This document shows, one piece after another, positions 23,785 through 39,069 of a DNA stretch of 64,000 nucleotides; positions within the stretch are counted from its first letter, which is position 1; each line of letters opens with the position of its first letter. The translations under genes and the position numbers were made by a program. The notes beneath the pieces were generated by a model. It ran no database searches. It was given only the letters and a program-made list of their open reading frames with translations, and was not told where the DNA came from. Source of the DNA: Colwellia psychrerythraea 34H (GTDB lineage: Bacteria; Pseudomonadota; Gammaproteobacteria; Enterobacterales; Alteromonadaceae); contig NC_003910.7 of assembly GCF_000012325.1 (NCBI RefSeq), forward strand, positions 4,526,001 through 4,590,000. Direction: 5' to 3'.

Positions 23785-24996
23785 TTAGCGTTCACCAAAA
23801 GATTCTGCCAATGTTTTACGCAAAGGTTTCAGTAAATAATTCAACACTGTACGGTCACTTGTTTTAATATCAATCTGAGCTGTCATACCCGGTAAAATAT
23901 CTAAAACCTTACCCGAAGTCGTTGTCACAGGGTTTGTTTTTGTTGAAACGTGTACCCGATAATAAATCTCTTCACCTTGGCCTTTTTCTTCTTTTAAGGT
24001 GTCAGCACTAACATAAACGACCTCACCAATAACACCGCCATAAATAGTGTAATCGAACGGGTCAAAACGTATAGTGGCATTAAGTCCTTTACGCACTTGA
24101 GCAATATCTGCAGGACTAATTTTCGCTTCAAGAATTAACTCATCACCCACAGGAATTATTTGCATCAACTCTTCCCCTGCGCGCAAGACTCCGCCGATGG
24201 TCGTTACGCGCACATTTTTCACTATGCCTGGTAATAATGCCTTAAAAATACTATCTTCTAATTGTTGTTTACGTTGCGTTAAAACTTGTACATTTTGTGC
24301 AATTTCATCTTCAGCTTTTGCTAACTCTGCCCCTGCATCTTCAAGGTAAGTATTTTTTCTATTCAATAATTTAGCTTCACTGTCATTCAAGCTTCTAGCG
24401 GCTCTAATAACTTCGGTACGATTCACATCACCTGATGCTGATAATTTTTTAATCAATTCAGACTCTTCTCGCGCTAAATCCACACCCTTTTTTAAAGCCT
24501 TTAACTCTTCAGCCAAGGTGGTACTTTTTTGCTCAAATAAAGCACGTTCAACCTTTATCTGCTCAGGAAAGCGCAGTAAATCATCAGCAAAAACTAACGT
24601 TTTATTGCCAAGAATTTCTGCACGCAATCGCGTTGCTTTTGCTCTTAATGCAGAAAGGCGAGCATCAACCTCTTTCACTGCAGCGCCAATACGCGTGGTA
24701 TCTAATGTCGCAATTACCTGCCCTTTAGTAACACTATCCCCTTCTTTTACATATAAATTGGAAATCACTCCCCCATCAACTGATTGAATAATTTGCACAC
24801 GGCTACTAGCAATCACTTCGCCTGTACCTCGCGCCACTTGGTCAAGTCGAAAGTTTGAAGCCCACAGCACAAAAACAACCAGCCCGATCAATATCCCCCA
24901 TAACACTAATGAATAGTTACGCAGGTAATAACTCTCTAAACGCGCAGTTGACTCTTGATTATCGTCATCATTGGAAAAAAAACTATCAAATAACAT
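23785..24996 (-). CDS. HlyD-family membrane fusion protein of type I secretion system
   Basis: Periplasmic adaptor of a type I secretion system, about 403 residues. It has one N-terminal membrane segment (YSLVLWGILIGLVVFVLWAS), a lipoyl-type half-motif (GEVIASSRVQIIQSVDGG, then LYVKEGDSVTKGQVIATLD), a long coiled-coil region (about residues 110-250), and the second lipoyl half plus beta-barrel ending in DILPGMTAQIDIKTSDRTVLNYLLKPL, typical of LapC/HlyD. The frame begins with GTG, but the ATG three codons later has the AAGGTGA ribosome binding site at proper spacing, so I use it. It overlaps the 3' end of the ABC exporter gene by 11 nt, indicating translational coupling. Confidence 0.92.
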   Translation of the reverse strand: MLFDSFFSNDDDNQESTARLESYYLRNYSLVLWGILIGLVVFVLWASNFRLDQVARGTGEVIASSRVQIIQSVDGGVISNLYVKEGDSVTKGQVIATLDTTRIGAAVKEVDARLSALRAKATRLRAEILGNKTLVFADDLLRFPEQIKVERALFEQKSTTLAEELKALKKGVDLAREESELIKKLSASGDVNRTEVIRAARSLNDSEAKLLNRKNTYLEDAGAELAKAEDEIAQNVQVLTQRKQQLEDSIFKALLPGIVKNVRVTTIGGVLRAGEELMQIIPVGDELILEAKISPADIAQVRKGLNATIRFDPFDYTIYGGVIGEVVYVSADTLKEEKGQGEEIYYRVHVSTKTNPVTTTSGKVLDILPGMTAQIDIKTSDRTVLNYLLKPLRKTLAESFGER

Positions 24997-27289
24997 GATT
25001 GTCACCTTGATTCACATTAGCCGCGACAAAACCTTTTGGTGTGCGTAATGTTGGAGCATCTCTGCTTGAGACAGTTGCTTTATTTTTCGTAACATTAGAC
25101 ATGATTTTGGACAGAACATCCTCAGGTTTCCCATCATTGATTATCTCACCGTGCTGCATCACAATAACGCGATTCGCCATCTTCGCCGCTAAAGCAGGGC
25201 GATGAGTTGAAATAATTAAAATATCATCGGTTTTAACATTGTCTAGCAATGCCTGTAATACTTTTTGTTCCGATTCGTTATCTAAAGTCGCTGTAGGCTC
25301 ATCCAACAACCATATTTTAGGTTGTGCTAAAAAGGTTCGACCAAGACCAACCAGCTGACGTTGACCACCAGATAATCCTTCTCCACCTTCACTAATGGCT
25401 AATTCCATACCTAACGAATCATCCGCAGCAATTTTATCTATACCAAGTTGCTCAGATACCTGTAACAAGTGAGAGTCACTTACCGCGCCAGATAATGCTA
25501 AATTGCTACGTAAAGTTCCTTTAAATAAATGCACACTTTGGGGTAAGTAACTGACCTGATCAGCGACAATATTGGGCTCTATTTCCCATAAGTCAGCCTG
25601 ACCCAATTTAATTCTGCCTTCCGCAGGTTTATATAAACCTGCTAACACTTTAAGTAAGGTCGATTTACCTGATCCTATCGCGCCGAGCAATACAACACGA
25701 TCACCCGCAGTAAAGGTTAATTTATTAATATTTAATTGCCGTATAGGTGATTCAGGATAGGAAAACATTATCCCGTCTAAACTGATTTTTTTAGGTAACT
25801 CATCAGGTAATAATAAATTTTGATCTACGCGGCGCTCCGTGTTCAATAATAATACCTGATTCACCATTTCTAATGCTTGCGCAACATTTTGCCACTGCGA
25901 AAAATACTGCACACTTTGTGCAACAGGGGCAATAACACGGCCACCTAAAATACTACAAGCAATCAAGGCCCCCATGGTTAAATTACCTGCTTCAATTTGG
26001 CCAACACCAACAACAATAGCACTGATATAAGCAGCAGTAGATAAACTGCCTGTACTAACAGTGGCAAAATTACTGATCGCTTTTTGGCGTATATTATAGC
26101 TCGAAATAGTTTGCGTTATCTCTTGCCATTGTGCTGAAAAACGCCATGTTGCATTATTCGCCCGAATAGATTCAGCGCCTTTAATAGCATCAACTAATAA
26201 CCCTTGACGTTCATTAGAGCGCATCATTTGCTGTTTAAGTAATCGGCGTAATCGTCTTTGTGTCATCCAGCCTAAAGTTAGTGCTATAGGTAATAACATC
26301 AGATAAACCCAGCCAATATGGCCGCCAATAAGTGCAATCATACCAATAAAAAATAAGGCGAAAGGTAGGTCTACTAAAGCAAAAACAACCCCTGAACTAA
26401 AGAATTGCCTGACCGAATCTAAACCACTCACTTGCGCGGCCAGTGTACCCAAACTACGAGGGCGCTCATCTAACTGCAAATGCATCACATGGTCAAATAC
26501 TTGTTGTGATACCGCTTTATCTACCGCACAACTCACACTGTCTAAGGTACGTGCACGGATTGTTTTTAAAAACCAATCCAGTACAACGACAATAAACATC
26601 CCCATGACTAAGGTAGTTAAAGTGGCATACGCTAAAGTTGGAACCACTCGATCATAAACTTGCATTGCAAAAATAGCCGTTGATACCGCCAAAACATTAA
26701 TAATAACCGTGGCAACGATAATATCGATTAACCAACGACGATTTTTAAACATTTTACTAAATACAAGTCTAGCGGCAATATTACCCTTTAATGAAAAAAT
26801 GGAGCTTTGCTCACTTTTTTTTGCGACGCGCAGCCACAAGACAATGCCCGTTTCGAGTTGCTCGTGTGTGCAATGCTCGCTCTCACCTGCCTCATTCGTC
26901 ACTAATAACTTATTCTCTTTTGCATGTTCAACCAATATCCAGCCCGAGTGCGTAAAAAGCATGGCCGGTAATCGACGTTGATCAAAACGCGTCCACCTGA
27001 CTTGGGCTGCTTGTATGCCTTTTAATTTTAATGCATTGAAAACAAAGTACAGTCGTTTAATCACCGGCGCTTGTGGCAATTGCGTTTCAGCCTGCTGACA
27101 AGCGTTAACTAAAGCACCTGTTTGCACCGAAGTCTCTAACTTATCCAATAAATTTTTTAACACGTTAACAGGCAGCGCTTGTTGTAATAAAGCCTGCTCT
27201 AACGTTAATTCATCGACTACATCGGGTGCAGCAGTTTGTGGGGATGCGTTTTCTACAGTTTGCTGTTCTGCGATATGATTACTGTTCAT
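24986..27289 (-). CDS. Type I secretion ABC exporter (LapB-like, C39-like N domain)
   Basis: Inner-membrane ATP-driven exporter of 767 residues. The N-terminal about 170 residues form a C39 peptidase-like domain with no catalytic Cys/His pair visible, so it probably docks the substrate and does not cleave it. A six-segment membrane domain follows (about residues 190-460), then the nucleotide-binding domain with GAIGSGKST (Walker A), GLSGGQRQ (signature) and WLLDEPTATLD (Walker B). An extra C-terminal tail of about 30 residues follows the switch region ISTHRPAL. It overlaps the TolC-like gene by 11 nt and the HlyD-like gene by about as much, so the three form one translationally coupled unit. 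Confidence 0.93.
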   Translation of the reverse strand: MNSNHIAEQQTVENASPQTAAPDVVDELTLEQALLQQALPVNVLKNLLDKLETSVQTGALVNACQQAETQLPQAPVIKRLYFVFNALKLKGIQAAQVRWTRFDQRRLPAMLFTHSGWILVEHAKENKLLVTNEAGESEHCTHEQLETGIVLWLRVAKKSEQSSIFSLKGNIAARLVFSKMFKNRRWLIDIIVATVIINVLAVSTAIFAMQVYDRVVPTLAYATLTTLVMGMFIVVVLDWFLKTIRARTLDSVSCAVDKAVSQQVFDHVMHLQLDERPRSLGTLAAQVSGLDSVRQFFSSGVVFALVDLPFALFFIGMIALIGGHIGWVYLMLLPIALTLGWMTQRRLRRLLKQQMMRSNERQGLLVDAIKGAESIRANNATWRFSAQWQEITQTISSYNIRQKAISNFATVSTGSLSTAAYISAIVVGVGQIEAGNLTMGALIACSILGGRVIAPVAQSVQYFSQWQNVAQALEMVNQVLLLNTERRVDQNLLLPDELPKKISLDGIMFSYPESPIRQLNINKLTFTAGDRVVLLGAIGSGKSTLLKVLAGLYKPAEGRIKLGQADLWEIEPNIVADQVSYLPQSVHLFKGTLRSNLALSGAVSDSHLLQVSEQLGIDKIAADDSLGMELAISEGGEGLSGGQRQLVGLGRTFLAQPKIWLLDEPTATLDNESEQKVLQALLDNVKTDDILIISTHRPALAAKMANRVIVMQHGEIINDGKPEDVLSKIMSNVTKNKATVSSRDAPTLRTPKGFVAANVNQGDNHVI

Positions 27290-28694
27290 AATGCTTTAAT
27301 CCTGCGGGATCATCCAAGGTTCCCATTAAGGTCAATAACTGTAACGACAACTGTTGCCAATCACTTGCTATCTGTACGAGTTGTAAACGTAACTCTGTTA
27401 GCTCGCGTTGGTTATTAAGTACTTCTACCCATGATTTACGTCCTGAATTATATTGGCGTAAAAACGATGCCATCGTCGCTTCAACTTCATCTACTATATC
27501 TTTTTGTGAACGCATTAAGTCTCGCTGCACGCCCCTATTAATCATTAACACATTAACTTGGCGCCTAACATCATTCAAGGCAGATTTCACCTCTTCATCT
27601 GCGGCATTTAAACGCGCAGCAGCGGCGTTTACACGCCCTGCACTTACTAAGCCAAGTCCTTCCATATTACTTTCAAATACTAAGCCAGCCCGAGTTTGGT
27701 CGACATTTATATCGTTATCTAAAAAATCATACTCAACACGAAAAGAAATGGTCGGCAGTGATGCCACTTTTTCCTGTTTTAAATTTAAACGCACCACCTT
27801 AAGTTGCTCACGCTTATAGCGAATATTTGCATCATTTTTCATTACTAATTTATTAACCACCAAACGATCGGGCAAACCTAATAAACTATCATCAATAGCG
27901 CCTTCCGTTGAAACCCGTATTTGTGTTAATGCCTGTAACTCAGCTTGAGCCACTAATTCCTCACCCATAATACGTTGTAATCTTGAACGGGCTTGCAGTA
28001 AACGCGAGTAAGCTAAGCGGGTATCGGCATTAGAGGCTAACTGACCTTGTTGACGACGAGAAATGCGACCATGTAAGTTTTCATGTTCCTTAATATTCTG
28101 TTTTGCCACGGTAATACGTAGTTTAATCCCTTGTATTTTAGCGTAAATTTTTGCGGTATCGCTTATCAACTCACGCTGATTTTGTATTAAGCCCCATTGC
28201 TCAGCGGTATAATTGGCGGTCGCTTCATCAATCGCCGTATCTATTTTACCAAAGGCCCACAGCGGTTGATTTAAGCGTAGTGTTCCTTGGTCTGCATCAT
28301 TATTTAAATTGTTAGCCTGTGCAGACAGCGTGGGGTAGCGTCTCGCTTTTGCACTGTCTATATCCGCCTCATACGAATTAAGAGCCGCTTGTTGGCCCTT
28401 TAATGCTGGGTTATGAATGATAACCGCTTGTAACGCGTTTAAAAAATCACGTGGTAAGGTTCGCTTTTTAAGTTGTGTAAAATCCCCCTGTTTAAATAGC
28501 GTAACTGATGACATAGTCGAAGTATTATCCTCTATATTAGGAGTATACTGGGCCTGAAACTCTGCTGCCTCTATTGCCATTGATACCAGTACGATTAACG
28601 ACAACATGAGTAATGACAAGCTAGGCATAGATAAGGAATACCTGCGACTTAACCTGCCATTAGTTGTCCATACTTTTTGCATTTTTTTTTGCAT
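27279..28694 (-). CDS. TolC-family outer membrane channel protein of the type I system
   Basis: Outer-membrane efflux protein of 471 residues. The N terminus has a basic region and then a hydrophobic segment (LSLLMLSLIVLVSMAIEA) ending in a signal-peptidase-like site. Two OEP repeats follow, with long helices: FLNALQAVIIHNPALKGQQAALNSYEADIDSAKARRYP is abbreviated here to its ends, FLNALQAV and KARRYP, the classic TolC start of the first helix. The second half carries QYNSGRKSWVEVLNNQRELTELRLQL, again given only as QYNSGRKSWVEVLNNQ. It is tightly linked to the ABC exporter (11-nt overlap) and lies 70 nt after the sulfotransferase gene. Confidence 0.9.
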   Translation of the reverse strand: MQKKMQKVWTTNGRLSRRYSLSMPSLSLLMLSLIVLVSMAIEAAEFQAQYTPNIEDNTSTMSSVTLFKQGDFTQLKKRTLPRDFLNALQAVIIHNPALKGQQAALNSYEADIDSAKARRYPTLSAQANNLNNDADQGTLRLNQPLWAFGKIDTAIDEATANYTAEQWGLIQNQRELISDTAKIYAKIQGIKLRITVAKQNIKEHENLHGRISRRQQGQLASNADTRLAYSRLLQARSRLQRIMGEELVAQAELQALTQIRVSTEGAIDDSLLGLPDRLVVNKLVMKNDANIRYKREQLKVVRLNLKQEKVASLPTISFRVEYDFLDNDINVDQTRAGLVFESNMEGLGLVSAGRVNAAAARLNAADEEVKSALNDVRRQVNVLMINRGVQRDLMRSQKDIVDEVEATMASFLRQYNSGRKSWVEVLNNQRELTELRLQLVQIASDWQQLSLQLLTLMGTLDDPAGLKHYEQ

Positions 28695-28764: not shown

Positions 28765-31467
28765 TTATTGAGAAACTGTCGTTTTCGTCGTAAAAGCATC
28801 ACTGGTGAAATGTTCATCATAGGTAACGGCATTATTGGCATCATTGGCAGTCGTTCGTTGGTTACCTTTCTTAAACGCCGCTATTTTATTGGTTTCACCT
28901 TCTTGCTCGTATGCTTTCAATAAGTTTTGTCGCCATTCTTTTTGCCAAGGACAGCTAGCAACTGCTTTTTCAAAGTGCCTAATACCATCTTGAGCATGGT
29001 TTTTAGTCAAATAAACCAGCCCGATCATATAATGACACGCTGCATGACCAGGGTTATGATGTAGCATCTTTTTAAAGCACATTTCAGCATCATCAAGCTT
29101 ACCCTCTTTGTATAGTGCGACACCGTCAGTTAAAAAACCGGGCTCAGGCAAGGTGAGCAAATCAGTTATAGGGTGTGATACTATTTTTGCATTAGTACCT
29201 TTGATTAATGGTGTTAACCGAGTTTGATAACGCAGCCACTTACCTTTTGATGTTTTATAAATAGGTTGTCGTACCTGCCAAACACTGGCTGTTTTCACTG
29301 TACGTACTAACTCATTAAATTTAAGTACTTTGGGTTGCCAGTTTACGCCAATATAACTCAACATTTTACGGGCGCAGCCTTCTATGTCGTCAACGACATC
29401 TTCATAATTAATTTCTAGAATTTCATCAGGAAAGGTTTGCTGCCAATGATGCATTAACAGATTATGATCGGCTAATTGTTCTCCAATATGCTCTAGATCA
29501 TAGGCAAAGCCCATACCGCCATGCTTAGCTTGATAATCAGTAAAATAATTCGACATAGCTATGTCGCGTGGGTCGCGACGTACTGAAATGATTTTAGCGT
29601 TGGGAAATAAAAATTTAATTAAACCAATATTTTCAAAATTATGCGGCATTTTATCCACCACGTATTTTGATTCTGGCTTAGTTTCAGCGGCGAGTTCTTG
29701 TAATTCTTTTAACATATTATTGGCAATACCTGCGATGGTATCGGCATTAAAATCGTCAATACAATCGGGGTATTGTCGACCAGAGCCAGTGTGGCGTTCC
29801 CAGCGATTTATCCCTTGTATAACTTGCGGAATAACACCTAACTCACCGGCACCAAAAATATCACTGTGCCCGGATAATATTTGTTCAACCAAAGTAGTAC
29901 CCGAGCGCGGCATGCCTAACACATATACCGGTATTGTTGATTCAATACCGTAGTTAGGACGATGCTGATACAAGGTTTTGTTAAAACAAGCACGTAATCT
30001 TGCACAGTCTTCGCGGTGTTTTTGAGCATTGTATGATAAAAACTTTTTACTGGCGTTATTAGCCTGTTCAGCAAATCTAAAGGCTTTATTATAGTCCTTC
30101 TTTTTTTCCCACGCGGCTGCTAATTGGAACAAAATACCGGCGCGCAACGAGCCTTCCATGCTAGGTTTATTGGCCGCGATAGCCATTTTATCTAAGGCTT
30201 CTACATCATCAGGAAAACGCCGGACATTAATTAGTGCCGAACACCCTTTCAGTAGGTCAATATCTTTAATACGTTCAAATAAGGCTACTGCTTCATCAAT
30301 ATTCCCCTGCTGCATTTGTTGCTGACCTAATCCTTGCAGTGCCGGTAAAAAATGGCTGTGCTCAGCCAAAATATCACGATAGAGCTTCTCTGAAACTTCA
30401 AAATTTTGCTCTTGGCATTCCACTTCAGCTAAAGCATTGTTTGCCTGTGCTTGTTTCATTTTAATCAACACTAAGGATTGTTCATCTGTAATCTCTAGCG
30501 CTTCTGCCAAACTGACAGCCCGTACTGCCGCTTTGCGTGCCTTTTTATCAAAACGGTGCAAGCAGGCTGTTGATAACTGCACCCAAAGGTCACTATTTCC
30601 TTCATCCTTTTTTAACGCTTTTTGCAGTAAACTAATCGCCTGCATAAAGTGCCCTTGTACCTGCGCTAGTTCAGCAAGTGCCATGCATAGCTCTACGTTA
30701 TTGTTATACTGCTTTAAGTATTCACGTAGAATATTCGTTGCTTGTTGATGAAAATTTTTTTCCGCTAACACTTGGCTATAGCTTTTAACGTATTGTACTA
30801 ATACGGCTTCATCATAGTCACCCGCTTGTTGTCGCACACTTAACTGAGTAAGCCATTCTTCAGCAGGGCAAAATAAACCTTGTACTACCCATAGTTGTAA
30901 TTGCGTAGTGTTCAGTTGAAACCAATATTGCTGGTAAAGCGGATCACCGACCTTATGATAATTAACTAACACTTCTGTTGCGCTATCGAGCTGTTTTTGT
31001 GCCTGGTTGAGCTCATTTTGTGCAATATATACGGCCACTAAATTGCGGTGTACGATGAAGCGCTCAGGAGTGATTATTAGTGATTTTTCAAAAAAGTGTT
31101 GTGCTTCAGCTAAGCGACCAGAAGCTAAATAACAGTATGCTAAGCGTGCCAGAGCTAATGCATGGTTACCTTGTTCCATCAAGATATCACTTAACATTTT
31201 AATGGCGTCATCTATACGCTGCATCACAATTAACACCACAGCCAAATCACAGCGGGCATCGACATCAAGCACGTCAAAATGTTTAAGCGATTGTTGGTAT
31301 AAGGCTTGGGTATTTTCTTTTAATCCCATATGGGCGTTAGCTGTAGCTAACAAGGGCAATACTGCTGGGTTGCCGCTGTCATACCAAAGTGATTGCGCTA
31401 ATTCGAGCAAACTAGGGTATTGTTGATTTTCGGCAAGTTGTCGCAACAGAATTAATTCGTTCATCAC
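28765..31467 (-). CDS. TPR-repeat sulfotransferase family protein
   Basis: A 900-residue fusion: about 480 residues of TPR-like helical repeats (LARLAYCYLASGRLAEAQHF and similar), then a PAPS-dependent sulfotransferase domain, then two further TPRs near the C terminus (AACHYMIGLVYLTKNHAQDG). The PAPS 5'-phosphosulfate loop reads VLGMPRSGTTLVEQILSGH at about residue 516, and the 3'-phosphate motif is ISVRRDPRDIAMSNYF. KMPHNFENIGLI lies between them. These features match Sulfotransfer_1/TPST-like bacterial proteins. There is no signal peptide, so it is probably cytosolic. It lies between the adhesin gene and the type I exporter genes on the same strand, suggesting that it acts on the adhesin or a linked surface product. 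The acceptor is unknown. Confidence 0.88.
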   Translation of the reverse strand: MMNELILLRQLAENQQYPSLLELAQSLWYDSGNPAVLPLLATANAHMGLKENTQALYQQSLKHFDVLDVDARCDLAVVLIVMQRIDDAIKMLSDILMEQGNHALALARLAYCYLASGRLAEAQHFFEKSLIITPERFIVHRNLVAVYIAQNELNQAQKQLDSATEVLVNYHKVGDPLYQQYWFQLNTTQLQLWVVQGLFCPAEEWLTQLSVRQQAGDYDEAVLVQYVKSYSQVLAEKNFHQQATNILREYLKQYNNNVELCMALAELAQVQGHFMQAISLLQKALKKDEGNSDLWVQLSTACLHRFDKKARKAAVRAVSLAEALEITDEQSLVLIKMKQAQANNALAEVECQEQNFEVSEKLYRDILAEHSHFLPALQGLGQQQMQQGNIDEAVALFERIKDIDLLKGCSALINVRRFPDDVEALDKMAIAANKPSMEGSLRAGILFQLAAAWEKKKDYNKAFRFAEQANNASKKFLSYNAQKHREDCARLRACFNKTLYQHRPNYGIESTIPVYVLGMPRSGTTLVEQILSGHSDIFGAGELGVIPQVIQGINRWERHTGSGRQYPDCIDDFNADTIAGIANNMLKELQELAAETKPESKYVVDKMPHNFENIGLIKFLFPNAKIISVRRDPRDIAMSNYFTDYQAKHGGMGFAYDLEHIGEQLADHNLLMHHWQQTFPDEILEINYEDVVDDIEGCARKMLSYIGVNWQPKVLKFNELVRTVKTASVWQVRQPIYKTSKGKWLRYQTRLTPLIKGTNAKIVSHPITDLLTLPEPGFLTDGVALYKEGKLDDAEMCFKKMLHHNPGHAACHYMIGLVYLTKNHAQDGIRHFEKAVASCPWQKEWRQNLLKAYEQEGETNKIAAFKKGNQRTTANDANNAVTYDEHFTSDAFTTKTTVSQ

Positions 31468-31774
31468 TACTTCTTCATATTGTTATTAGTTAATTTCTAA
31501 GTGAATCAAGGTTTATTCACTTTTATTTAAGCACTATCCCAATAAAACCTTAATAGGACGAATGTATAAAGGCTTTGATTAGCTAAGTTATCAAATTAAT
31601 GAACAAAGGTTTTATGCCGCTGCCCAGAGCCTAAAACATGATATAACAAAAATATGTCAGCATTACGAACACACTAAACAACGCTGTTTATCAAGCCAAC
31701 GAACAATGTCGTTGGCGACAAATTATGATCAGTGTTGGTAACAATGGTAACTGGCAACCTTTACCGATGAAGCG
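31468..31774. other. Gap between adhesin and sulfotransferase genes
   Basis: 307 nt with no gene I can support. It contains the start region of the sulfotransferase gene (no promoter I can name) and a short plus-strand open stretch crossing the adhesin 3' end with no family resemblance. There is no terminator with a clear T run after the adhesin. Confidence 0.4.
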
Positions 31775-34700
31775 CTACGCGAGACCTTGGCTGGTCATTA
31801 TGCCCACTGGCATGGTATTAGTGTATAACTCGCCGCCTGCCCCAGCGTCTAGCTGCATATTAGGTACTATTCCGGTCCAAATATCAAAAGTGTCGCTTCC
31901 TCCGTCTACATTACGAAACAACGTCCCCTCCTGATTAATAACCACGACTGTCGTTGGACCAGCAGCCAATAGGTTTAATGCACTATTCGTTTCGGATACG
32001 GAAGTCACCGAAACGTTACCCGCTCCACCTTTTAAATCCAAGCCATTCCCGGCGATTATCACTCGGTCATCGCTGCCCAAATTATCCGCCCCCGACCATA
32101 AACCCCATGTCCCATTTGCACTGTTTTCATTAGTGAGTAAAGTACTAACACTCGAATTGACCTTAATGTAGATCGTATAAGTTGTATTACTGTCGAATGT
32201 TCGGCTTGAATGGTCCGATGAAGTCCCTCCGACTAAATCAAACACCACGACAGTTTCATTGACCACCACTGCAGTATCTATAGCGAAGTTATCTGATGTA
32301 ACGGGGTCTGTTGGCACATTTCCTGCTAAATCAGCTATCCCCGTATTGACTACGGTTATAGTATTGCTCGTATCTGTGATCCCATCTGTTGGTGTAAATG
32401 TACCGGTCCATGTCACGCCGCTATCACTTGTACTAATTGCCGACAGTGTGCCGTTTGCACTCGTTAAATCAATGTCGTCGTTAGTAAAATTGGTTACCGC
32501 CTCACTAAAAGTAATTGTTAAAGTCGCCGTTTCACTTTTAGCTAAGTCTGTATCACTTAATACAACACTGTTAATAATCGGTGCGACTTCATCCAGATCA
32601 TTAATATCAAGCGTGACGACTTGTTCACTACTGTTATTGCCGGTATCGGTCGCCACCACGATAAAGCTGTAATCGGCTTTGGTTTCATCATCCGGATTGG
32701 CCGTTAAGGTCACTGCTCCTGTACTGCTGTTGATGGTAAATAATGCGGCATCATCACCGGTTTTCAAGCTGTACACCGTTGCGCCTATAGCAACATCACC
32801 GCTATCGGTTGACGTGACCGTGTACACCACTTGACCAGCACCACTGTTTTCATCAATAGCGGTTGCTGTCGCCGCCGAGGTGATCGTCGGCGCGATTTCA
32901 TCAAGATCGGTAATATCAAGCGTGACCGCTTTTTCGCTGTTGTTACCGGGCGAATCAGTAGCCACCACGGTAAAATTGTAATCGGCTTTGGTTTCATCAT
33001 TCGGATTGGCGGTTAAGGTCACCGCTCCCGAAGTGCTGTTGATGGTAAATAAGGCTGCGTCGTCAACGGCTTTTAAGCTATAAAGCGTTGCGCCAGTGGC
33101 AATATCACCGCTATCGGTTGACGTGACCGTGTATACTACTTGGCCAGCACCACTGTTTTCATCAATAGCTGTCGCGCTTGAAGCTGAAGTGATCGTTGGT
33201 GCAACTTCATCAAGATCAGTAATATCGAGCGTGATCGCTTTTTCGCTGCTGTTACCGGCACCATCACTTGCCACTACGGTAAAGTTGTAATTGGCTTTGC
33301 CTTCATCATCCGGATTGGCCGTTAAGGTCACCGCCCCGGTGCTGCTGTTGATGGTAAATAAGGCCGCATCATCTCCACTTTTTAAGCTGTAGGTCGTTGC
33401 GTCGGTAGCAATATCACCATTGTCAGTTGACATGACCGTGTAAACCACTTGGCCAGCACCACTATTTTCATCAATAGCTGCCGCTATCGCCGCCGAGGTT
33501 ATCGTCGGCGCGACTTCATCAAGATCAATAATATCAAGCGTGATCGCTTTTTCGCTGCTGTTACCGGCACCATCACTCGCCACCACAGTAAAGTTGTAAT
33601 CAGCTTTGCTTTCATCATCCGGATCGGCCGTTAAGGTCACCGCCCCGGTACTGCTATTGATGGTAAATAAGGCCACATCATCCCCACTTTTTAAGCTGTA
33701 GGTCGTTGCGCCGGTAGCAATATCACCATTGTCAGTTGACGTGACCGTGTACACCACTTGGCCAGCCCCACTGTTTTCATCAAGTGCGGTCGCGCTTGAA
33801 GCTGAAGTAATAATTGGTCCAACTTCATCAAGATCGGTAATATCTAGCGTGATCGCTTTTTCGCTGCTGTTACCGGCACCATCACTTGCCACCACAGTAA
33901 AGTTGTAATCTGCTTTGCTTTCATCATCCGGGTTGGCCGTTAAGGTCACCGCCCCCGTACTGCTGTTGATGGTAAATAAGGCCGCATCATCTCCGGCTTT
34001 TAAGCTGTAGGTCGTTGCGCCGGTAGCAATATCACCATTGTCAGTTGACGTGACCGTGTATACCACTTGGCCGGCGCCACTGTTTTCATCAAGGGCTATC
34101 GCGCTTGAAGCTGAAGTGATTGTTGGTGCAACATCATCAAGATCAATAATATCAAGCGTGATCGCTTGCTCAGTGCTGTTACCAGCACCATCACTCGCGA
34201 CCACAGTAAAGTTGTAATCGGCTTTGCTTTCATCATCTGGATTGGCCGTTAAGGTCACCGCCCCGGTACTGCTATTGATGGTAAATAAGGCCGCATCATC
34301 ACTGGCTTTTAAGCTGTAAGCCGTTGCACCCGTGGCAATATCACCGCTATCGGTTGACGTGACCGTGTAGACCACTTGGCCAGCGCCACTGTTTTCATCA
34401 AGGGCGGTCGCGCTTGAAGCTGAAGTGATCGTTGGTGCAACTTCATCAAGATCAGTAATATCGAGCGTGGTCACTTTTTCGCTGCTGTTACCGGCACCAT
34501 CACTTGCCACTACGGTAAAGTTGTAATCGGCTTTGCTTTCATCATCCGGATTGGCCGTTAAGGTCACCGCCCCCGAACTGCTGTTAATGGTAAATAAAGC
34601 TGCATCATCACCGGCTTTTAAGCTGTAAACCGTTACGCCCGTGGCAATATCACCGCTATCAGTTGACGTGACCGTATATACCACTTGGCCAGCACCACTG

Positions 34701-37700
34701 TTTTCATCAAGGGCGGTTGCTGTTGTCGCCGAGGTGATTGTTGGCGCGACATCATCAAGATCAGTAATATCAAGTGTGATCGCTTGCTCAGTGCTATTAC
34801 CAGCGGCATCGCTCGCCACCACGGTAAAGTTGTAATCGGCTTTGCTTTCATCATCCGGATTGGCCGTTAAGGTCACCGCCCCGGTGCTGCTGTTGATGGT
34901 AAATAAGGCCGCATCATCTCCCGCTTTTAAGCTGTAAACCGTTGCACCGGTAGCAATATCTCCGTTATCGGTTGACGTGACCGTATACACCACTTGACTG
35001 GCACCACTGTTTTCATCAATAGCTGCCGCTATCGACGCCGAGGTGATCGTCGGCGCGACTTCATCAAGATCGGTAATATCGAGCGTGATCGATTGCTCAC
35101 GGCTGTTACCGGCGGTATCAGTCGCCACCACAGTAAAGTTGTAATCGGCTCTGATTTCATCATCCGGATTGGCTGTTAAGGTCACCGCCCCGGTACTGCT
35201 ATTGATGGTAAATAAGGCCGCATCATCACTGGTTTTTAAGCTGTAAGCCGTTGCGCCCGTGGCAATATCACCGCTATCGGTTGAGGTGACCGTGTAGACC
35301 ACTTGGCCAGCACCACTGTTTTCATCAAGGGCGGTCGCGCTTGAAGCTGAAGTGATCGTTGGTGCAACTTCATCAAGATCGGTAATATCGAGCGTGATCA
35401 CTTGCTCGCTGCTGTTACCAGCGGTATCAGTCGCCACCACGGTAAAGCTGTAATCGGCTTTGGTTTCATCATCCGGATTGGCAGTTAACGTCACCGCCCC
35501 GGTACTGCTGTTGATAGTAAATAAGGCTGCATCATCTCCCGCTTTTAAGCTGTAAGCCGTTACACCCGTGGCAATATCACCGCTATCGGTTGACGTGACC
35601 GTATACACCACTTGACCCACGCCGCTATTTTCATCTATAGCGGTTGCTGTCACCGACGAGGTTATCGTCGGCGCGACATCATCAAGATCGGTAATATCGA
35701 GCGTGATCGCTTGTTCAGTGCTGTTACCAGCACTATCACTTGCCACTACGGTAAAGTTGTAATCGGCTTTGGTTTCATCATCCGGATTGGCTATTAACGT
35801 CACCTCCCCGGTACCACTATTGATGGTAAATAAGGCTGCATCATCACCGATTTTTAAGCTGTAAGCCGTTGCGCCCGTAGCAATATCACCGCTATCGGTT
35901 GACGTGACCGTGTAGACCACTTGTCCGGCGCCACTGTTTTCATCAAGGGCTGCCGCTATCGCCGTCGAGGTAATCGTCGGCGCAACTTCATCAAGATCGA
36001 TAATATCGAGTGTGATCGCTTGCTCAGTGCTGTTACCAGCACTATCACTTGCCACTACGGTAAAGTTGTAATCAGCTTTGGTTTCATCATCCGGATCGGC
36101 AGATAAAGTCACCGCCCCGGTACTGCTGTTGATGGTAAATAAGGCTGCATCATCACCGGTTTTTAAGCTGTAATCCGTGCTGCCCGAAGAAACATCATCG
36201 CTATCAGTTGACGTGACAGTGTATACCACTTGACCGGCACCACTGTTTTCATCAAGGGCGGTCGCGCTTGAAGCTGAGGTGATTGTTGGCGCAACATCAT
36301 CAAGATCGATAATATCAAGCGTGATCGCTTGTTCTCTGCTGTTACCAGCGGCATCGCTCGCCAGCACGGTAAAGTTGTAATCGGCTTTGGTTTCATCATC
36401 CGGATCGGCCGTTAACGTCACTGCCCCGGTACTGCTGTTGATGTTAAATAGGGCCGCATCATCACCGGCTTTTAAGCTGTAAGACGTTGCGCCCGTGGTA
36501 ATATCACTGCTATCAGTTGACGTGACTGTGTACACCACTTGTCCGGAGCCACTGTTTTCATCGATTGTGCTAGCCGTGCTTGCTGACGTAATCGTCGGCG
36601 CGACTTCATCAAGATCGGTAATATCGAACGTGACTGATTGCTCACTAATGTTACCTGCCGGATCGCTCGCCACTAAGGTAAAATTGTAATCGGCTTTGCT
36701 TTCATAATCAGGATTTGCCGTTAAGATCACCGTCCCCGTACTACTGTTGATAGCAAATAAAGATGCATCATCACCCGTTAAGCTAAACCTGGCATTCTCA
36801 TCATTAGTGACTGCTTGATAAACAACCTGGTGAGTACCACTGTTTTCATCTAAATCAGACGCAAGAGAGCTAGAATCAAAAACTGCGCTAGTGGTATCTA
36901 CATTAATAAAGGCTGCCGGACTTATAACTTGTTCACTTATATGAGAGGTAACTGCAATACGTCCCTCACCGGCAGCATTAATAACTGAGCCAGGGACTAA
37001 AATGGTTGCTACGCCATCTATCAGCTCAGCACCACTAATTTCAACAATATGAAATTGGTTACCCCATTGGATAACAACCGAATCACCAATGTTTACATTG
37101 TCTACCTGAACAGCTACACCTGCTTCACTTTCGACTTTATTAACACTGCCCCGCTCCGTATCAATGACAGGAGGTTTAATCAATGCGGCGGCTAAGTCAG
37201 CCTTTTCAGCATTCACACCTGCTTCAAATGCCTCCAACCCGTCCTGCAGTAATTCAAATCCAGACTTTGTAAAGGCCAACTCACCATCAGCCTGCGTTTC
37301 TATCTCGATTCTTATTTTATTAATGGTCACATCAATACTCAGCATTGATGTTGAATCACTCCCACCCGAGCTTGCTAATGCATTCTCTGTTCCTGATAGC
37401 AATGCCAAAATATTACCATATTGCTCGGCGGCATTAAGGCCATCTGAACTGTCATAATCGTCATCTAAAATAGTTGTTACTGGGGCTAATATGTCTTCAA
37501 CATCAAATAACTTGGAAACCTCAGCGTTTACTGCAACATTTTCTGTTGTTACTTTATTGTCTTCACCAATACCTGCCTGACGCGAAGCAAGCTCAGTTAA
37601 AGGAGTAATGCTCATAGTGACATCACCAAAGCCATCAGTGTGTCCCATTGCACGCAGTGACGAATCGCCTAAACTAACAAGTTTCCCAGTAGTTTCATCT

Positions 37701-38356
37701 ATATAATCACCTTCACTACCATTGCTATCGACAACCTTAGCTAATAGTGGTCCTTGATAACCATTATCAATGGTGAAAACAACCGGTCCATCACTAAAAT
37801 CATGCTCTTTATTTGCCAGTTCATTACCATCTTTATCATACAATGTAATAGTCGCAATTGACTTAAAAGGACCAGCTACTGGATCCAAGGTCACCTGGTA
37901 GCTTGGATAATCTTCATCATCACTATCCAACGCTACGGAGCCAAGCACACTAGCACCAAATAAGGCAACACCCCATGTTAAAGGGGACAGTCCTAAAAAA
38001 TCATTATCCTCTTGTGCTTTTCGAACAATAGGTTCATTGCCCTCAGCGATCACTGGCTTATCCGTACTGCTGATACTCATCCCTTCAGCGGGCGTAAAAC
38101 TACCATCCGCTGAGAAAGTCGCATTCATCGATTCACTATAAAAACCTTCAACTTGAGCAACAATTACTCCTTCTACCTCTACTGTTAAATCATCATCTTT
38201 ACGCTTTAACACTAACTCTTGAGGAGCTTGTTGAGTTCCTTCTTTAACTACCGTATAAATTGCACCATTTAATGCGGTCAAAATCTGTAATTCGACCAAA
38301 GTAAATGTTTGACGTTCGCCATTTGCTAATTCAACAAGTAAAGTTAACTTTATCAT
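31775..38356 (-). CDS. Giant cadherin-repeat adhesin, type I secretion substrate
   Basis: Predicted surface or biofilm adhesin of 2193 residues. The N-terminal about 120 residues are a beta-rich domain like that of BapA/LapA-type proteins (LANGERQTFTLVELQILTAL), followed by a hydrophobic segment (121-142, LSPLTWGVALFGASVLGSVA) and the acidic DSDDEDYPSY. After a region of about 350 residues come 14 tandem cadherin-like repeats of about 103 residues, each containing DENSGAGQVVYTVTSTD, INSSTGAVTLTANPDDE and ADYNFTVVASD. One Ig-like domain (SETATLTITFSEAVTNF) and a C-terminal domain with DGGSDTFDIWTG close the protein. There is no Sec signal, in keeping with type I export by the downstream genes. 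The ribosome binding site (AAAGGGC) lies inside the preceding transposase-like frame. I see no RTX nonapeptide array. Confidence 0.88.
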   Translation of the reverse strand: MIKLTLLVELANGERQTFTLVELQILTALNGAIYTVVKEGTQQAPQELVLKRKDDDLTVEVEGVIVAQVEGFYSESMNATFSADGSFTPAEGMSISSTDKPVIAEGNEPIVRKAQEDNDFLGLSPLTWGVALFGASVLGSVALDSDDEDYPSYQVTLDPVAGPFKSIATITLYDKDGNELANKEHDFSDGPVVFTIDNGYQGPLLAKVVDSNGSEGDYIDETTGKLVSLGDSSLRAMGHTDGFGDVTMSITPLTELASRQAGIGEDNKVTTENVAVNAEVSKLFDVEDILAPVTTILDDDYDSSDGLNAAEQYGNILALLSGTENALASSGGSDSTSMLSIDVTINKIRIEIETQADGELAFTKSGFELLQDGLEAFEAGVNAEKADLAAALIKPPVIDTERGSVNKVESEAGVAVQVDNVNIGDSVVIQWGNQFHIVEISGAELIDGVATILVPGSVINAAGEGRIAVTSHISEQVISPAAFINVDTTSAVFDSSSLASDLDENSGTHQVVYQAVTNDENARFSLTGDDASLFAINSSTGTVILTANPDYESKADYNFTLVASDPAGNISEQSVTFDITDLDEVAPTITSASTASTIDENSGSGQVVYTVTSTDSSDITTGATSYSLKAGDDAALFNINSSTGAVTLTADPDDETKADYNFTVLASDAAGNSREQAITLDIIDLDDVAPTITSASSATALDENSGAGQVVYTVTSTDSDDVSSGSTDYSLKTGDDAALFTINSSTGAVTLSADPDDETKADYNFTVVASDSAGNSTEQAITLDIIDLDEVAPTITSTAIAAALDENSGAGQVVYTVTSTDSGDIATGATAYSLKIGDDAALFTINSGTGEVTLIANPDDETKADYNFTVVASDSAGNSTEQAITLDITDLDDVAPTITSSVTATAIDENSGVGQVVYTVTSTDSGDIATGVTAYSLKAGDDAALFTINSSTGAVTLTANPDDETKADYSFTVVATDTAGNSSEQVITLDITDLDEVAPTITSASSATALDENSGAGQVVYTVTSTDSGDIATGATAYSLKTSDDAALFTINSSTGAVTLTANPDDEIRADYNFTVVATDTAGNSREQSITLDITDLDEVAPTITSASIAAAIDENSGASQVVYTVTSTDNGDIATGATVYSLKAGDDAALFTINSSTGAVTLTANPDDESKADYNFTVVASDAAGNSTEQAITLDITDLDDVAPTITSATTATALDENSGAGQVVYTVTSTDSGDIATGVTVYSLKAGDDAALFTINSSSGAVTLTANPDDESKADYNFTVVASDGAGNSSEKVTTLDITDLDEVAPTITSASSATALDENSGAGQVVYTVTSTDSGDIATGATAYSLKASDDAALFTINSSTGAVTLTANPDDESKADYNFTVVASDGAGNSTEQAITLDIIDLDDVAPTITSASSAIALDENSGAGQVVYTVTSTDNGDIATGATTYSLKAGDDAALFTINSSTGAVTLTANPDDESKADYNFTVVASDGAGNSSEKAITLDITDLDEVGPIITSASSATALDENSGAGQVVYTVTSTDNGDIATGATTYSLKSGDDVALFTINSSTGAVTLTADPDDESKADYNFTVVASDGAGNSSEKAITLDIIDLDEVAPTITSAAIAAAIDENSGAGQVVYTVMSTDNGDIATDATTYSLKSGDDAALFTINSSTGAVTLTANPDDEGKANYNFTVVASDGAGNSSEKAITLDITDLDEVAPTITSASSATAIDENSGAGQVVYTVTSTDSGDIATGATLYSLKAVDDAALFTINSTSGAVTLTANPNDETKADYNFTVVATDSPGNNSEKAVTLDITDLDEIAPTITSAATATAIDENSGAGQVVYTVTSTDSGDVAIGATVYSLKTGDDAALFTINSSTGAVTLTANPDDETKADYSFIVVATDTGNNSSEQVVTLDINDLDEVAPIINSVVLSDTDLAKSETATLTITFSEAVTNFTNDDIDLTSANGTLSAISTSDSGVTWTGTFTPTDGITDTSNTITVVNTGIADLAGNVPTDPVTSDNFAIDTAVVVNETVVVFDLVGGTSSDHSSRTFDSNTTYTIYIKVNSSVSTLLTNENSANGTWGLWSGADNLGSDDRVIIAGNGLDLKGGAGNVSVTSVSETNSALNLLAAGPTTVVVINQEGTLFRNVDGGSDTFDIWTGIVPNMQLDAGAGGELYTNTMPVGIMTSQGLA
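32580..36900 (-). repeat. 14 tandem 309-bp repeats encoding cadherin-like domains
   Basis: The phrase encoding DENSG recurs 14 times between 36841 and about 32845 (plus-strand coordinates). Spacing is exactly 309 bp for all copies but the first, N-terminal one, which is about 20 bp shorter. Copies are near-identical in their second half and vary mostly in a short stretch at the domain start (TATALDENSG, IAAAIDENSG, SATALDENSG) and in TYSLK/AYSLK/VYSLK. The bases are GC-richer than the surrounding DNA. Such arrays expand and contract by recombination and are easily mis-assembled. Confidence 0.9.
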
Positions 38357-39069
38357 TATATGCCCTTTAAAGCGGCTCTATAGCGTTCAATGTTGTAGGA
38401 TTGAAATATCTGAATTAATCCATTATTGAATACTATGCTCAACGCATCTGTTTTTATTGTTTTACTGACTCCACTTTCAAGAAATCTACGCCAACCAAAA
38501 TAACTGCTCACACAATGAAAAGCGATCAGCAGATGATGAATGATGTCATGCTTTTTTAATAAATTTTTACAGGCGTGTGCGCCATCTGTGCAGAGAATTA
38601 AATATGTATTTACAATCTGTTCGAGTTTTTCAATTAAAGCGTCATTATTGTGTTTACCAAGCAGATAGTTTGCCGTTTTATCGCTTCGTTCTTTAACAGT
38701 GCGTGACTTTTTTTTATCTTTATCAGAGTACTTTTCGTCTTGTTTACTTCGTTTTCTGGGTATATATTTGAAGATATTTTGAGCACCTCCAAATGAGATT
38801 GAAAAGAACATCTCATCCGCTTCTGTTTTGTCACTGCCCTCATTAGATCTTGCTTCCGTTTGCGCAGTAAAAAGCCAATGTTCCCATCGAAAAATTGCAG
38901 TGCTAACGCAATGTGGAAAGCAAATTACTTCACCTTTAATATTTTCAATCATTGATTCAGTTTGAGTACGATTTAATTTAGCTTTAACCGCATCAAGCAA
39001 CTCACGTTTTTGTGTGTCGGTAAGATTGAAAAGTGAATGAATAATTTGTCTAAATACGTGGTTGTTCAT
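38356..39069 (-). pseudogene. Decayed IS1595-like transposase frame
   Basis: An open frame of 237 codons with scattered pieces of an IS1595-group transposase: an N-terminal helix like LTDTQKRELLDAVKAKL, a remnant zinc-finger phrase CFPHCVSTAIFRWEH, the DEMFF...SFGG phrase (usual form DETFFLESFKG), PRKRS, LCTDGAH, and YFGWRRFLES. The second zinc-finger pair and the stretch up to the DE motif (about 70 residues) are missing, as is the segment between the DG motif and YLGWRR. This indicates in-frame deletions. It overlaps the adhesin start by 1 nt (TAATG). No terminal inverted repeats were found. Whether it is dead or a retained derivative is open. Confidence 0.6.

Follow-up and report, generated by a model that had tools for sequence, protein, structure and literature searches.

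The window analysed here is a 64,000-nucleotide stretch of the Colwellia psychrerythraea 34H genome (NC_003910.7, positions 4,526,001 to 4,590,000), which is a single contig of 5,373,180 bases. On its minus strand lie, in order, the genes for a giant adhesin of 2193 aa (31775..38356), a 900-aa sulfotransferase with tetratricopeptide repeats (TPR-ST, hereafter ST; 28765..31467), a TolC-family outer membrane channel (27279..28694), an LssB-like type I ABC exporter (24986..27289) and a HlyD-family periplasmic adaptor (23785..25005). A preliminary description of 28765..38356, made from the sequence alone, had the genes, order and coordinates right, and the sulfotransferase motifs it named, GMPRSGTTLVEQILSGH and RRDPRD, are both present in the ST. 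The TolC, ABC and HlyD genes lie outside that segment, and the unit thereby reaches 23785. With an ABC transporter, HlyD and TolC encoded beside the candidate substrate, this is a type I secretion locus. The HlyD protein scored above the TIGR01843 cut-off (320.8 against 208.65 bits) and the ABC exporter below that of TIGR03375 (603.7 against 693.1 bits); no C39 peptidase was matched by Pfam in the exporter. The adhesin and ST genes are 307 bp apart and ST and TolC 70 bp apart, followed by overlaps of 11 and 20 bp. The 307-bp gap contains one weak promoter-like and one weak terminator-like site. Because scans for such sites across the region found no more than in shuffled sequence, we only infer that the adhesin, ST and exporter genes are co-transcribed.

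The adhesin is built from an N-terminal domain of ~110 aa (38027..38356), a hydrophobic segment, ~14 cadherin repeats (Pfam Cadherin in 14 stretches), a Big_12 domain and a conserved C-terminal domain of 161 aa with a predicted beta-rich fold, ending in TSQGLA (31775..32260). Like LapA/BapA-type adhesins, it is a giant repeat protein encoded with an LssB-like ABC transporter, HlyD and TolC, and we take the module ahead of its hydrophobic segment to be comparable with theirs. Unlike those systems, this operon contains a sulfotransferase, and the window N-terminus had no match to a retention module, or to any other family, in Pfam or NCBIfam. The BapA prefix-like family PF22783 was likewise not found in it; the Comamonas copy gave a match under the cut-off (E 0.12). 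Of 13 ST-positive genomes, 10 have a LapG-type protease (PF06035); none was found in the other three (G000, G032 and G830).

The ST has an N-terminal TPR superhelix, a sulfotransferase domain at residues ~507-760 and further TPR at ~780-860, so that TPR flanks the PF13469 match (residues 513-712, E 3.5e-44, 152.1 bits against a cut-off of 27) on both sides. It carries the 5'-phosphosulfate-binding (5'-PSB) motif GMPRSGTT, and four catalytic-like residues are invariant in all 59 ST rows aligned. The domain has the fold of tyrosylprotein sulfotransferases (TPSTs), with Arg, Glu, Lys and Ser at the catalytic positions; the roles of these residues are presumably those they have in TPSTs. Its best structural matches were protein sulfotransferases, namely human TPST1 and TPST2 (5wri, 5wrj, 3ap1-3ap3, 9wwe) and tick TPST (8w5z), at 18-20% identity. 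TPSTs are Golgi enzymes and, unlike the ST, have no TPR arms. In that respect the ST resembles OGT and SPINDLY, which modify polypeptides and likewise join a TPR superhelix to a transferase; it differs from them in catalytic domain and donor. A long TPR superhelix would also suit a chaperone whose arms keep the adhesin unfolded for export, catalysis being unimportant, and type I substrates are indeed exported unfolded. We regard this as very improbable, given the invariance of the four catalytic-like residues and the presence of cysC in two of the operons (below).

We searched for the ST in several sets of genomes. Among 61 relatives (E <= 1e-40), 32 genomes had some match. Only three of these had an ortholog over the full length, at 100, 89 and 58% identity, and the best of the rest reached 33% over ~410 residues. 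A contig search with one protein, which reached close relatives only, gave three loci and found the ST at 88% identity in C. psychrerythraea and C. demingiae. Orthologs (E < 1e-240) occurred in 7/295 genomes of the order and in 3/369 of the class, which had one 33% relative (G670) besides, both samples including the genome of the window; one family had them in 3/75 genomes, two of which had already been found in other samples. In the phylum sample 13/398 genomes matched at E <= 1e-75, six of them (the window's genome included) with orthologs of at least 50% identity and seven with relatives of 30-39%; G894 and G830 had two matches each. A protein search gave 251 clusters at E <= 1e-100 from 7996 scored candidates, and the best 120 of these included Psychromonas, Psychrobium, Aliiglaciecola, Marinomonas, Oceanisphaera, Methylococcaceae and Pseudomonas benzenivorans. 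The record behind one ST of 52% identity (P0100) bears the label Flavobacterium sp., a genus that does not belong to the Proteobacteria; this reflects either transfer or a wrong label. In these samples the ST is patchily distributed, and it is carried by a Comamonas plasmid; together these suggest horizontal transfer.

We read 19 ortholog loci (the window, L034, L042, L043, L044, L053, L054, L055, L056, L057, L059, L060, L071, L107, L120, L123, L124, L125 and L126), counting once a place present as both L033 and L042. ST, TolC, ABC and HlyD followed one another in that order in 16 of the 19, with the HlyD gene cut by the end of the stretch in L056 and L057. As for the other three, the L107 stretch ends with the ST, the 13.4-kb contig of L124 shows no exporter gene, and at L125 none was seen within 20 kb, the exporter being present in the same genome at L126. 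In 15 of the 19 the stretch includes an adhesin bearing the common C-terminal domain; in L125 the match is weak (52 bits) and its distance from the ST is ~9 kb. The C-terminal model did not match the L053 adhesin, whose N-terminus is the shared one, and two more domain-bearing genes lie upstream in that genome; in L124 the adhesin gene, again with that N-terminus, begins after the ST and is cut by the contig end; in L123 and L126 no adhesin was seen adjoining the ST. In L044 a 229-aa open reading frame (ORF) on the opposite strand separates adhesin and ST.

As a control we took 13 loci with 15 other TPR-sulfotransferases, namely the second one of the window's own genome and 14 taken from the 43 matches to non-orthologs that the search of 61 relatives listed. 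No HlyD relative, TolC relative or type I ABC transporter was found at these 13 loci, the sole ABC match being weak (29% over 190 aa). Exporter linkage therefore differed between ortholog and control loci (16/19 v 0/13, P = 3e-6, treating loci as independent). All seven large control-locus proteins scanned, six of them adjoining the ST, were TonB-dependent receptors. This pairing is a second recurrent one for TPR-STs of Colwellia and its relatives (L035, L038, L039, L040, L065, L067).

In a tree that flags long branches and leaves out L069, the 19 STs formed one clade (support 100/100). Nine distant STs joined it at 98/91, separate from the TonB-linked and autotransporter-linked STs. Eight of the nine directly follow a large surface-type protein, several of these cut by contig ends; at the ninth locus (L130) the contig ends where the neighbour would be judged. 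Pfam matched Calx-beta repeats in the L131 and L134 proteins, FecR in L127, and Ig-like domains with weak FecR matches in L132. The L133 protein resembles the window adhesin by BLAST (30%); by eye, the L062 protein looks RTX-like, and those of L128 and L129 resemble that of L127. ABC or HlyD genes of the type I kind were near three distant STs only (L131, L133, L134). Across 15 operons (L060, a near copy of L059, was excluded), ST distances tracked those of TolC, ABC and HlyD (r = 0.81, 0.88 and 0.84; 0/2000 permutations), as expected of shared ancestry.

Beyond the repeats, the adhesins have in common the C-terminal domain of ~160 residues, which in most copies ends in TSQGL[AV]. A model built from 13 copies found it in the same 7/295 genomes of the order as the ST ortholog (chance 3e-14) and the same 3/369 genomes of the class (chance 1e-7); being made from ST-linked adhesins, the model would miss very unlike ST-free relatives. 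The exporter behaved similarly: among the 61 relatives, only the three ST-positive genomes had the ABC transporter at 71-100% identity, the next best being 36%. The survey of co-occurrence that the preliminary description had proposed supports its link of the ST with the adhesin and the type I system: several families keep the neighbourhood, the C-terminal domain of the adhesin is confined to ST-ortholog genomes (among 295 and 369 genomes) and a close exporter was found only with the ST (among 61). We are close to certain that the ST is an integral part of this adhesin and type I system.

Neither Pfam nor NCBIfam matched the C-terminal domain in any of five scanned copies, and it had no clear relative among solved structures. 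One Marinomonas adhesin has an additional internal copy, so the domain need not be just a secretion signal. Four copies occur in one genome (G223), three in another (G385) and two in a third (G146), the loci being L092, L063 and L091. Several domain-bearing adhesins in one genome suggest that one exporter and one ST serve several adhesins.

Does the system perform sulfation? In Comamonas endophytica the operon reads adhesin-ST-TolC-ABC-HlyD-cysC, with cysC, encoding adenosine 5'-phosphosulfate (APS) kinase, at L071:22286-22873. In a second genome (G226) cysC directly follows HlyD and runs off the contig (L055:8984-9160); it is 64% identical to the Comamonas copy, and its truncation puts its score (61 bits) under the family cut-off. 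BLAST found no cysC in the remaining ortholog stretches, of which L056 and L057 end inside HlyD. A CysC above cut-off was present somewhere in all 10 ST-positive genomes tested. The STs of the two cysC-bearing operons are not sisters in the tree, so that cysC was either acquired on two occasions or acquired a single time and lost later. An operon-borne kinase making 3'-phosphoadenosine 5'-phosphosulfate (PAPS), the sulfate donor, is independent support for sulfation by this system.

If the ST is active, its acceptor could be something other than the adhesin chain. The main rival is a glycan borne by the adhesin and added by a glycosyltransferase encoded elsewhere. One locus in its favour is L125, where a 1202-aa fusion of TPR-ST and TPR-GT41 (the OGT family) lies between the domain-bearing adhesin and the TPR-ST (L125:6455-10063), so that glycan sulfation may occur in some lineages. 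Two more ST-like genes stand beside this fusion. Similarly, L062:1-7091 has a row of an RTX-like protein end, a distant TPR-ST, a methyltransferase with a regulatory domain and a GT1/methyltransferase protein, and an autotransporter and a glycosyltransferase of family 8 accompany some other TPR-STs. These last include plasmid-borne genes near an autotransporter (L072:8260-14308, L073:13936-20149, L074:6909-10903); in Kluyvera and Enterobacter the family 8 enzyme is there as well. However, the annotation of 32.6 kb at the Comamonas locus lists no glycosyltransferase, Pfam matched none in the nine proteins scanned in this part of the window, and the ST is structurally closest to enzymes that sulfate proteins. 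We therefore consider a glycan acceptor unlikely. Somewhat less likely still is action on a surface polysaccharide, lipid or small molecule, the place in the operon then reflecting co-regulation with the adhesin. No polysaccharide gene was seen between the operon genes, and this reading is also opposed by the way the ST accompanies the adhesin domain and exporter in several families and by its TPR layout, which is like that of the protein-modifying OGT and SPINDLY.

The reading we favour, and hold to be probable, is a dedicated type I cluster with a built-in enzyme, the ST sulfating the adhesin polypeptide. Because PAPS is cytosolic and a single step carries type I substrates from the cytosol out of the cell, the ST would act before or during export, on the unfolded chain, of which the TPR arms are the natural reader. 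The TPR superhelix of a cytosolic ST would bind the adhesin while this is unfolded, probably with help from one of the conserved end domains of the adhesin (N- or C-terminal), and the enzyme would transfer sulfate from PAPS to polypeptide hydroxyls, most likely those of tyrosine. The cognate HlyD-ABC-TolC exporter would then move the sulfated adhesin straight to the surface. The preliminary description had proposed such TPR-guided sulfation in the cytosol; the fold of the ST is compatible with this.

The preliminary description also pointed to tyrosines in acidic surroundings, and the sites are present as it described, including DSDDEDYPSY at residues 144-153 and KADYNF, of which there are 10 instances, or 14 if the pattern is relaxed to [KR]A[DN]Y[NS]F. 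In the window adhesin as a whole, the surroundings of tyrosine fell below those of 200 shuffles in acidity (z = -4.5); three tyrosines had a net acidity of at least 4 where 2.3 were expected. We applied the same test to 20 large proteins, 15 from ortholog-bearing genomes and five distant. Six, including the window adhesin, had a less acidic context (z <= -2.7; L043 -5.9, L057 -6.2, L063 -5.5, L071 -5.4, and L120 -2.7, the last unsure because its frame seems to extend past the true start), three a more acidic one (L060 4.1, L131 3.3, L134 2.8), and 11 lay between -1.6 and 1.3. Acidic tyrosines were accordingly rejected as substrate evidence in the window, for want of enrichment, and may still count elsewhere.

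The named sites were also poorly conserved. Among 18 aligned N-termini, DSDDEDYPSY or DGDDEDYPSY occurred only in the two Colwellia rows and GDY[IL]DE in those two and L053; DYLDEAT was present in L057 and Comamonas and absent from the first 330 residues of L056, L060, L063, L091 and L092. Some adhesins have few tyrosines at all (22 in the 3015 residues of the L060 ORF, 4 in the 1048 of the L059 piece). Two positions are well kept: Tyr34 of the N-terminal domain in 15/18 N-termini, the three others (L120, L127, L132) having no recognisable domain, and Tyr2060 (column Y28) of the C-terminal domain in 22/22 copies. As both lie in conserved, probably folded segments, we name neither as a site. 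In our judgement tyrosine as the sulfated residue falls a little short of an even chance, and Tyr150/153 as the site is improbable.

The remark in the preliminary description that a sulfotransferase is not normally part of a type I system overlooks raxX-raxSTAB of Xanthomonas. There the TPST RaxST is encoded with the type I exporter RaxA/RaxB and the peptide RaxX; PAPS-dependent sulfation precedes export, and RaxST has been modelled on TPST2 (PMC6637879). The same paper reports the complete cluster only from Xanthomonas, raxST homologues elsewhere mostly being without raxA or raxB (PMC6637879). The present locus shares with it a sulfotransferase clustered with type I exporter genes. The rax substrate is described there as a 60-residue precursor whose double-glycine leader is removed by RaxB (PMC6637879), whereas the candidate here is a 2193-aa adhesin with conserved end domains. 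TolC and PAPS synthesis are housekeeping functions in the rax system; here TolC is in the operon and so, in two cases, is cysC. Unlike RaxST, the ST has TPR arms, and its ABC transporter has no C39 peptidase match. Thus, raxSTAB is a precedent from which the present system differs in architecture, substrate class and spread. Searches of the open PMC library, judged by title and by the opening of the abstract, listed no account of this gene set; the papers that came up were on Xanthomonas or, by title, unrelated.

Protein sulfation is a widespread surface modification in eukaryotes; in bacteria, RaxX is the only case known to us. Whether TPR-armed, TPST-like STs represent a widespread means of sulfating giant adhesins in the cytosol of Proteobacteria before export, recognising conserved end domains, seems to us evenly balanced. 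If so, protein sulfation of bacterial surfaces would be common and not a Xanthomonas curiosity. The gene set would be a convenient setting in which to ask whether adhesins are sulfated in bacteria, how a TPR enzyme picks out an unfolded giant substrate, and what sulfate contributes to adhesion at the cell surface.

Immediately upstream of the adhesin, window positions 38356-39069 hold an ORF weakly similar to an IS1595 transposase (39.8 bits, cut-off 75). PADLOC matched neither this ORF nor the ST, and a defence-system reading was dropped for that reason. Phage carriage was limited to a partial match in one phage record of 1544 bases. The stop of the IS1595-like ORF overlaps the adhesin start, and a similar, shorter ORF precedes the L043 adhesin.
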